Of a stretch of 64,000 nucleotides of DNA, positions 14,888 to 38,156 are shown in pieces. The stretch's first letter is position 1, and every line of letters begins with the position of its first letter. The DNA is taken from contig NZ_AULJ01000013.1 of the NCBI RefSeq assembly GCF_000425225.1, forward strand, positions 107,707 to 171,706. Direction: 5' to 3'. Made by a program: the position numbers and the translations under genes. The notes under the pieces are model-generated. The model worked only from the letters and a program-made list of their open reading frames with translations, was not told the origin of the DNA and searched no databases. Source of the DNA: Pontibacillus marinus BH030004 = DSM 16465 (lineage in GTDB: Bacteria; Bacillota; Bacilli; Bacillales; BH030062).

Positions 14888-14934
14888 AAAAAAACACTCG
14901 CCTCTTTTTATTTGAAAGAGGCGAGTGTTTTTTT
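14888..14934 (-). terminator. Regulated T-box terminator
   Basis: ACACTCGCCTCTTT pairs perfectly with AAAGAGGCGAGTGT and is followed on the minus strand by a run of T. It lies just after the T-box sequence and before argC, so it should stop transcription unless the antiterminator is stabilised by uncharged tRNA. Confidence 0.9.
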
Positions 14935-15139
14935 CACCCGCGGTACCACTCTTATTGTTCCATCATAAGGAACCAACTTTTAAGCTTTATAACGGTAGCA
15001 ACCCGGTCAAAATGTATAAACACGAATATTCTATACAACCTGACATCTCCAAAGTGCGGTTCATTACATTTCCTGTCCTGGGCTTCCACCATCCCCAGTT
15101 CGCTGATCACATTCCATGTAACTACTCTCTTCTTCATTA
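14888..15139 (-). promoter_or_regulatory. T-box leader of the arginine operon, candidate specifier CGC (Arg)
   Basis: On the minus strand the leader contains a stem I region (GAAGAAGAGAGTAG, GGATGGTGGAAG), the hallmark AGAGTGGTACCGCGG at about 14938-14952 and a terminator. T-box RNAs sense uncharged tRNA: a specifier codon in stem I pairs with the anticodon and TGGN pairs with the tRNA 3' end. The segment TGAACCGCACTTTGGAG has CGC (an Arg codon) at 15058-15056 where the specifier is expected, which fits the operon. The exact specifier register is my reading and should be folded to confirm. Confidence 0.88.
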
Positions 15140-15156
15140 ATTTTAATTTTGTATTT

Positions 15157-18675: not shown

Positions 18676-18744
18676 CCTATCACCCTTTCATTTCGTTACA
18701 AATATTATATGTAAAGAATAAAAAAGGGTGTTCGCCTATTGAAC

Positions 18745-19075
18745 AAAAGCGTAAGCGCCCGGTTAGCAACGTATATGCTGGACTGAGCTGCAGTAAGATT
18801 AACTAAACTTGCTGATTGGCAAGCCGGTAGGCGCAGACAGAAGCTTAGTTGCCGTGGTACTTTAACCTAGAAATTTTCCCCACGTCGAATCTCTTCGGTG
18901 GTAAAATTTCATATCACCAAACGTGTAAAGGAAACACGAAGAGCAAAGCGATTCGATGTTGACTTATCTTACGGAGAAAGAATGATCGACTAAAACCGTC
19001 ACGTCCTGTGACAACGTCGACCTGACCCACGTCGTGTGGGCCCAAGCATACTAGTTGCTGGGCGCTGGAGCTGGA
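18745..19075 (+). repeat. Structured dispersed element, copy 1 (331 bp, non-coding)
   Basis: GC-richer than its surroundings and without a plausible gene. The ends pair: AGCGCCC (18754-18760) with GGGCGCT (19060-19066), AGCAAC (18765-18770) with GTTGCT (19054-19059), and TATGCT (18774-18779) with AGCATA (19045-19050). Inside are GTAAGAT/ATCTTAC (18793-18799/18966-18972), ACGTCGAATC plus TCTTCG (18882-18897) with CGAAGA and GATTCGATGT (18937-18942, 18950-18959), and hairpins CTTGC/GCAAG, GTCAC/GTGAC and CCCAC/GTGGG. GAAATTTT (18870-18877) can pair with AAAATTTC (18903-18910), crossing the preceding helix. The second copy keeps these helices with changed bases. The remainder of the 18676-19180 gap holds nothing I recognise. 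Confidence 0.88.
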
Positions 19076-19180
19076 TGTGGCCACGCTCTTATTAATGAGT
19101 TATACACAAGCCTCCAATTTTATAATTGCCTATACAAAAAAGAAGCACGTATTTTAAACGTACTCCTTAATTTGAACGTT

Positions 19181-37791: not shown

Positions 37792-38124
37792 AAAAGCGCA
37801 AGCGACCTATTAGTAACGAAGGGACTGGACTGAGCCCGTAGTACGATTAACCAAACTTGCTGATTGGCAAGCCGACAGGCGCAGACAGAAGCTTAGTTGC
37901 CGTGGTACTTTCACCTAGAAATTTTAACTACGTCGATTTTGTTCCTTGTTAAAATTTCATGTCACAAACGTGTAAAGGAAACTCTTTGGGAGTGGAACGA
38001 ATCGATGTTGACTTATCGTACGGAGAAAGTATGATCGACTAAGTTCGTCACGTCCTGTGACAACGCCGATCTGACCCACGTCGTGTGGGCCCAAGTCCAT
38101 TCGTTACTGGGCGCTGGAGCTAGA
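37792..38124 (+). repeat. Structured dispersed element, copy 2 (333 bp, non-coding)
   Basis: Second copy of the element at 18745-19075, in the same orientation. Long blocks are identical (CTTGCTGATTGGCAAGCCG; GGCGCAGACAGAAGCTTAG; GACCCACGTCGTGTGGGCCC). Where the copies differ, paired arms change together: AGTAACG (37812-37818) with CGTTACT (38102-38108); GGACT (37822-37826) with AGTCC (38094-38098); GTACGAT (37841-37847) with ATCGTAC (38015-38021); ACGTCGATT plus GTTCC (37930-37938, 37941-37945) with GGAAC and AATCGATGT (37994-37998, 38000-38008); GAAATTTTAAC (37918-37928) with GTTAAAATTTC (37948-37958). The rest of the 37731-38190 gap holds nothing else I recognise. Confidence 0.88.
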
Positions 38125-38156
38125 CATCTACATCATATAATATTTTTGTAATTTGA

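Follow-up and report, generated by a model that had tools for sequence, protein, structure and literature searches.

Probable members of a composite, BOX-like mobile element family of Bacillales in Pontibacillus marinus, with the Bacillaceae-1 RNA motif as a module

The two structured elements of about 331 nt in the window, the whole stretch of 64,000 nucleotides of the Pontibacillus marinus genome analyzed here, are very probably members of a non-autonomous, composite, BOX-like mobile element family of Bacillales. One of their internal modules is the curated sRNA family RF01690 (Bacillaceae-1). Within this genome, and probably more widely, that family is a component of mobile repeats.

Anatomy and consensus fold of the window copies

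The elements, located at 18745-19075 (copy 1) and 37792-38124 (copy 2), are real, as the earlier note had described them, and can be aligned end to end, with 89% mean column identity in an alignment that includes 20-nt flanks. Also in line with its description, neither copy contains an ORF of at least 80 aa, the threshold of the ORF list; an ORF of 89 aa begins at 19055 and exits copy 1. On either strand, each copy has a more stable fold than its dinucleotide-shuffled versions (n = 100), with z scores of -2.84 for copy 1 (one shuffle doing as well) and -4.26 for copy 2 on the plus strand, and of -4.48 and -4.53, respectively, on the minus strand. Comparison with the empty site of the species G002 discloses that 18745-19075 is the core only: the inserted element of copy 1, absent in G002, covers approximately 18741-19134 on the plus strand, with type II ends (GAAC-AAAAGCG at the left and a tail at the right), and a shift by a near-repeat of about 9 nt allows the insertion to be placed equally at 18732-19125.

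The core of copy 1 (18745-19075, plus strand) is an outer stem enclosing nested helices and comprises, all on the plus strand, (i) the 5′ arm AGCGCCC of the outer stem (18754-18760; partner 19060-19066; consensus helix 2); (ii) the 5′ arms AGCAAC and TATGCT (18765-18779; partners 19054-19059 and 19045-19050), which form the covarying helices 3 and 4; (iii) the 5′ arm GTAAGAT of the middle stem (18793-18799; partner 18966-18972), which forms the covarying helix 5; (iv) the nested module B (18800-18912), found elsewhere as a standalone repeat; (v) the covarying central hairpin AAAGGAAACACGA...GATTCGATGTTGACTTATC (18926-18969; helix 10); and (vi) module C (18974-19040), which corresponds to the RF01690 hairpin pair at 71.5 bits. 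The type II 3′ tail, TGTGGCCACGC...TTTTATAATTGCCTATA (19076-19134, plus strand), lies outside the stem, is similar among copies and is absent from the empty site. Copy 2, on the same strand, comprises the core with the type I end CTAGA, module B (37848-37960), module C (38023-38089; RF01690 at 70.9 bits) and a decayed type I tail (38125-38155) whose end is approximate; its site in G002 is empty as well.

Both window copies of module C match positions 1-67 of the 67 positions of the RF01690 model, for which the gathering score is 35 bits. The earlier note could not match the element to a named class; this module, which lies within the 3′ half of the element, does have such a match. RF01690 was the sole Rfam family matched by 18700-19160 at E ≤ 1. 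HEARO, IS605-linked and other large ornate RNAs gave no match there, nor, at gathering level, anywhere in the window. The gathering-level matches in the window comprise the two RF01690 copies and a T-box leader (RF00230, 110 bits) at 14914-15146 on the minus strand.

The consensus structure was derived from 18 full-length copies, ten from this genome and eight from G002, for which RNAalifold predicts 88 pairs in 13 helices, including 16 pairs with double changes. At these 88 pairs, 98.0% of the cells are paired, compared to 95.1% after shuffling, a value that none of 500 shuffles reached; the same holds for the 16 double-change pairs (6.8 shuffled) and for the covariation score (0.114 against 0.061 shuffled). 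Double-change cells amount to 47, compared to 13.9 shuffled, again reached by no shuffle; the number of further pair types was reached by 11 of the 500 shuffles. All these counts refer to sequences and not to events: helix 4 is changed jointly in 5 of the 18 rows. Sliding the consensus structure along the alignment reduces the paired cells to 31-37%. In addition, 10 of 44 pairs of the 145-bp class described below carry double changes (21 of its 22 copies, the inverted copy L055 being excluded). The paired changes proposed from two copies hence persist in the wider alignment rather than vanish, and the pairing of the 5′ and 3′ ends of the whole element (the outer stem) as well as the invariant loops are borne out. 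As for the four helices quoted in the earlier note, AGCAAC/GTTGCT, TATGCT/AGCATA and GTAAGAT/ATCTTAC stand as helices 3, 4 and 5; TCTTCG/CGAAGA is not supported, being fully complementary in 1 of the 18 rows and retaining at least five of its six pairs in 4 of the 18.

The same paired changes could be a mutational by-product, produced without selection as the two arms of an imperfect palindrome exchange sequence by template switching or inversion, an explanation to which we assign a low probability. The changes shared by 5 of the 18 rows in helix 4 are consistent with it, and so is copy L055 (contig C34 of this genome, 38761-38905), whose outer stem arms enclose the entire interior in inverted orientation, so that arm-to-arm exchange does happen. 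Conserved unpaired loops, such as RUCCU in loop 1, are left unexplained by such a process, and module C is kept across genera: its outer stem displays 56 distinct arm pairs in 128 contexts, some of them picked by exact identity to 20 bases of the first hairpin, outside which the arms lie, with 92% of the cells paired over five positions, against 58% when the partners are shuffled (maximum 70% in 1000 shuffles). Compensatory changes could nevertheless stem partly from quasi-palindrome correction and not from selection. Regarding the strand of the fold, the ratio of G-U to A-C cells, at pairs predicted on both strands, is 20:8 in alignment A2 and 8:3 in alignment A3 and favors the plus strand; the ratio for module C across genera (4:15; first five positions of the 56 arm pairs) points in the opposite direction.

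Copies, ends and insertion sites

When the own genome (4.28 Mb in 77 contigs) was searched at the DNA level, at least 69 matches emerged from the best 40 of 149 candidates. Exact copies of the left end AAAAGCGNAAGCG number 59 genome-wide and those of the right end GGCGCTGGAGCTRGA 55, the reversed-pattern control giving 0 in both cases. At least 66 elements with both ends, 2-3 substitutions being allowed, are present in 84 own-genome loci, which fulfils the earlier note's call for many copies; 66 is a lower bound because some end matches fall outside the 84 loci. Three contigs of this genome (C26, C41 and C52) start inside, or within 15 bases of, an element copy; the assembly thus seems to break at the repeats, and the copy number may be underestimated.

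The elements share common ends, display modular interiors and span 38-515 bp, with size classes that differ by entire modules. The shortest class (38-63 bp; n = 5) consists of the ends only, or nearly so, followed by the 145-bp form (143-147 bp; n = 22), made of the outer stem and the central hairpin, and by single elements of 154 and 163 bp. In the 205-bp form (204-206 bp; n = 7) module C replaces GCGAGGG; in the 271-bp form (270-272 bp; n = 12) module B is added between GTACGAT and AAAGG; and the 331-bp form (331-345 bp; n = 10, both window copies included) contains modules B and C. At the point of exchange, GTACGATAAAGG of the 145-bp type becomes GTACGAT, module B and TAAAGG in the 271- and 331-bp types. 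The eight elements of 390-515 bp complete the series, the longest carrying tandem copies of query positions 254-309. The family thereby combines the fixed ends and the variable, tandem inner modules of a composite repeat with the many dispersed copies without coding capacity of a MITE (ORFs were checked in the two window copies).

Among the 66 elements, the end type is CTAGA (type I) in 39, CTGGA (type II) in 25 and of another kind in two. Type I elements are preceded by TAAG in 20 of 39 cases and retain a recognizable CTTATACTTTCTTTA tail in 17, whereas type II elements are preceded by GAAC in 14 of 25. A TTTTATAATTTCCTAGA-like tail is found in 17 of the 25 type II elements, compared to 7 of the 39 of type I.

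Empty sites were identified by searching same-genus genomes with flank-only queries and aligning filled and empty loci at 14 sites, L023 not being among them. The element moves, since G002 lacks it at 13 of these 14 orthologous sites, with a precise junction at nine (L001, L003, L011, L017, L032, L035, L047, L053 and L056). Two of the nine, L001 and L017, are the window copies, L001 displaying an extra gap of 11 nt. At L005, L009, L021 and L026 the element is absent from G002 and the junction is not exactly readable; at the remaining site, L013, which is intergenic, a type I element stands opposite a G002 sequence (L294) that has a type II-like tail and is either a shorter copy or a remnant. 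Of the type I copies whose tail can be read (n = 17), five are flanked by a junction repeat of 7-8 of 8 bases; with the left flanks permuted, the mean is 1.84 and 35 of 2000 permutations reach five. L056 and L011 have none and the type II copies L047 and L053 have 0-2 bp, so no single duplication length fits.

The surroundings of the elements were scored by open frames and not by gene calls. At the left flank, 32 of 62 callable frames end at the element, 27 of these with the stop codon 0-9 nt away, and 30 start from it; at the right flank, 35 end and 23 start. Because flanking frames both end and start there, the strand of the element relative to genes is not fixed. This bears on the reading of the family as repeated structured RNAs, acting in trans or in cis, in which each copy would be an ncRNA gene or a 3′-UTR domain with module C as its protein-binding part, for example a CsrA sponge on the reverse strand. 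The covariation together with the invariant loops argues for such RNAs, and so do the linkage of module C to rRNA operons and its reverse-strand CsrA motifs, both considered below; the insertion polymorphism, the variable content of the copies and the missing strand preference of the neighboring frames argue against them, and on balance we hold this reading to be unlikely. The earlier preference for an ornate non-coding RNA over a MITE holds only in part: the multi-branched covarying fold is borne out, but the family behaves as a mobile composite with at least 66 copies, variable modules and empty sites.

The enzyme responsible was sought through a parent transposon: the type I/B right-end pattern has 24 exact matches in this genome and 8 in G002. 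At 17 of these loci (12 own, five G002) no transposase-bearing copy was found; they contain standalone module B in 10 of the 12 own loci and in all five of G002. One of these 15 standalone elements is internally deleted, L376 has a decayed left end, and all are at most 129 bp long where the left end is readable; at L374 and L375 no left end lies within 2 kb of the right-end match. The other 12 own matches comprise ten type I copies, one standalone B (L018) and the position C6:11125, which was left out. Once one mismatch is tolerated, the pattern does not exceed its control: this genome contains 84 matches to the control's 87, and G002 60 to the control's 77.

The genome encodes three RAYT-like Y1_Tnp genes, L085, L086 and L087, all on contig C4. 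Their presence, the foldback anatomy of the elements and the TAAG and GAAC bases at the left flanks would suit a fold needed as single-stranded DNA, as the substrate of a Y1/RAYT (IS200/IS605-type) transposase after the manner of REP/BIME. On the other side, no pair of element ends lies near L085 or L086, and the 205-bp element nearest to L087 is separated from it by more than 1 kb and adjoins another kind of palindrome, GGTGCCTGACCCC. Moreover, GAAC is missing from the empty site of L047 and is therefore part of the element, unlike an IS605 target, and the junction repeats of some copies misfit the mechanism, which leaves a Y1 substrate an improbable explanation. Nor do the elements flank or adjoin any of the three transposase genes, as would be expected of a REP/RAYT system.

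Within the preferred reading of a non-autonomous composite element, an enzyme supplied in trans by the host or an IS would recognize the left end AAAAGCGNAAGCG and the right end CTTATACTTTCTTTAC or TTTTATAATTTCCTAGA, and insertion would take place into AT-rich, often TAA-containing sites, frequently right behind a stop codon. New forms may arise at a hairpin, by insertion of one folded element into another or by recombination between the two, the composite then being copied whole, and the strongly folded unit would be tolerated, as DNA or RNA, as a neutral or stabilizing 3′-UTR domain.

Modules B and C across Bacillales

The expectation that similar repeats exist beyond the host is confirmed by related pieces in other Bacillales. 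Among the 249 genomes sampled from the order, at least 120 (in 64 of 105 genera) contain RF01690, many genomes being represented by their best ~19 scored candidates; it is also present, among 14 control genomes, in B. subtilis only. Eight Bacillaceae-1 structures are mentioned for B. subtilis in the available part of PMC8208703, and RF01690 is named among abundant sRNA families in that of PMC9029176. Module B, a stretch of ~113 nt, is detected in 69 of the 249 genomes (41 of 105 genera) by a covariance model built from 15 sequences over 113 positions. Both modules occur in 48 genomes, B only in 21, C only in 72 and neither in 108 (Fisher p = 3e-5); B and C co-occur above chance, yet each exists without the other.

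Standalone module B is a repeat of ~128 bp, TAAAGAAAACTTGCC...TTATACTTTCTTAACGTG, in this genome and in G002, with a right end, TTATACTTTCTTAA, that resembles the type I right end, and it occurs in other sampled genomes as well. A standalone locus gave a single Rfam match, far below the family cut-off. Head-to-tail tandem arrays of module B with a spacing of ~124-131 bp were observed in G016 (C84, 27415-27900), G067 (C17, 49742-50119) and G009 (C1, 27330-27812), and at locus L101 of G028 module B is represented just by its inner hairpin, AAATTTTAACTACGTCGATT...GTTAAAATTT, which lies between two apparent tRNA genes, recognized by eye.

The repeats that host module C differ, as judged by eye: (i) the AAAAGCG type in this genome and in G040; (ii) a GCAAAGGTGGGCC...GAGACTCCTGCGGGAG repeat in the same-genus genomes G004-G006, found also in Pontibacillus records; (iii) further distinct repeats in G017; and (iv) other repeats in Domibacillus, Lysinibacillus, Oceanobacillus, Alteribacillus and Paraliobacillus, among the stretches listed, at most 60 of 110. 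Locus L112 of G040 displays the same ends, with module C first and an extra long hairpin-like stretch absent here.

Module C is also found in rRNA operons: of 111 contexts (named records, some from the same genome), 12 are at most 500 nt from a 16S or 5S motif. Six precede the 16S start motif by 54-68 nt, and the other six precede the 5S motif by 56-244 nt. All 12 are on the rRNA strand, which is the strand that reads RUCCU, and this placement constitutes indirect RNA-level evidence for module C. Since the RUCCU strand thereby lies in the rRNA primary transcripts of some species, module C is possibly a conserved two-hairpin RNA recognized by a putative host factor. A general role of module C as a part of rRNA leaders was rejected because, with the pattern used, 1 of 19 16S leaders in three RF01690-carrying genomes contains it (1 of 2 in G015, 0 of 9 in G081 and 0 of 8 in G120), so that its occurrence is sporadic; the 16S motif had no match in G000 (this genome), G002 or G147, whose leaders stand outside this count. 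Within G015, the leader L386 carries the Bacillaceae-1 pair 54 nt before the 16S motif and the leader L383 does not, the two sharing a common sequence farther upstream.

CsrA binding was proposed from motif matches on the reverse complement of RF01690 in PMC4333381, which, in the part available, also mentions that the discoverers of RF01690 were unsure of its strand. Those matches are the source of the CsrA sponge, as the binding part of a structured RNA, and they are joined by the reverse-strand GGA of loop 2, present in 21 of the 30 best hits from other genera of the order. In contrast, none of the 23 readable second loops of own-genome and G002 copies gives GGA on the reverse strand, and the rRNA transcripts carry the RUCCU strand and not AGGA; on account of the 21 loops, CsrA binding may still apply in other genera. 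RF01690 is found in 3 of 14 genomes without CsrA and in 117 of 235 with it (p = 0.053), a co-occurrence that is uninformative because CsrA is present in 235 of the 249 genomes.

We further consider, as an unlikely extension, that B and C are portable RNA domains with conserved host factors, captured repeatedly by unrelated foldback elements of Bacillales because their carriage would aid the survival of the element in transcripts, perhaps through recruitment of antitermination or of rRNA-type processing; in rRNA operons, module C would then be this very domain, either performing that role or providing it to others.

Relation to known repeats and significance

MITEs such as bcr1 are short, ORF-free and dispersed, with empty sites and, in some cases, repeats at the junctions. 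REP/BIME sequences, which are associated with RAYT, are palindromic, extragenic and dispersed. The elements described here resemble the former in being short, ORF-free and dispersed, with empty sites and repeated bases at some junctions; unlike such MITEs, they are modular and multi-branched, display two end types, and no parent transposon was found with the type I/B right end in this genome and G002. An entry for bcr1, of the Bacillus cereus group, is given in PMC2267715. The elements share with REP/BIME the palindromic, extragenic and dispersed nature and a genome with Y1 transposases, but they differ in a far larger multi-helix fold and in that no linkage between element and Y1 gene was found.

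The nearest precedent, by analogy, is the BOX family of Streptococcus pneumoniae and S. suis, described as composite elements of 67-637 bp in the available text of PMC3049150, according to which the boxB of S. suis is wrapped by two different end pairs. Like BOX in that account, the present family is dispersed and combines paired end modules with inner modules that vary in number and include tandem ones, its cores ranging from 38 to 515 bp, and like boxB of S. suis, module C is wrapped by different repeats. The likeness drawn here is one of architecture, and unlike those of BOX, the inner modules here span many genera, one being an Rfam family and one occurring also as a standalone repeat. What is unusual is precisely this order-wide spread of modules, together with the identity of one of them with a curated sRNA family.

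RF01690, described in PMC2864571 (available in part), is entered as a 67-nt family of the type 'Gene; sRNA', in contrast to its place here as one module of a ~331-nt mobile composite, and a search of openly licensed papers on Bacillaceae-1, Bacillus repeats, bcr1 and BOX yielded no description of it within such a composite. Its recognition as a mobile-repeat module would alter the annotation and the counting of its copies, and the copies in rRNA operons point to the transcribed strand, which the available part of PMC4333381 calls uncertain. Dozens of copies per genome, together with sites that are empty in a relative, make the family a natural experiment in the nesting, swapping and compensatory upkeep of folded modules.
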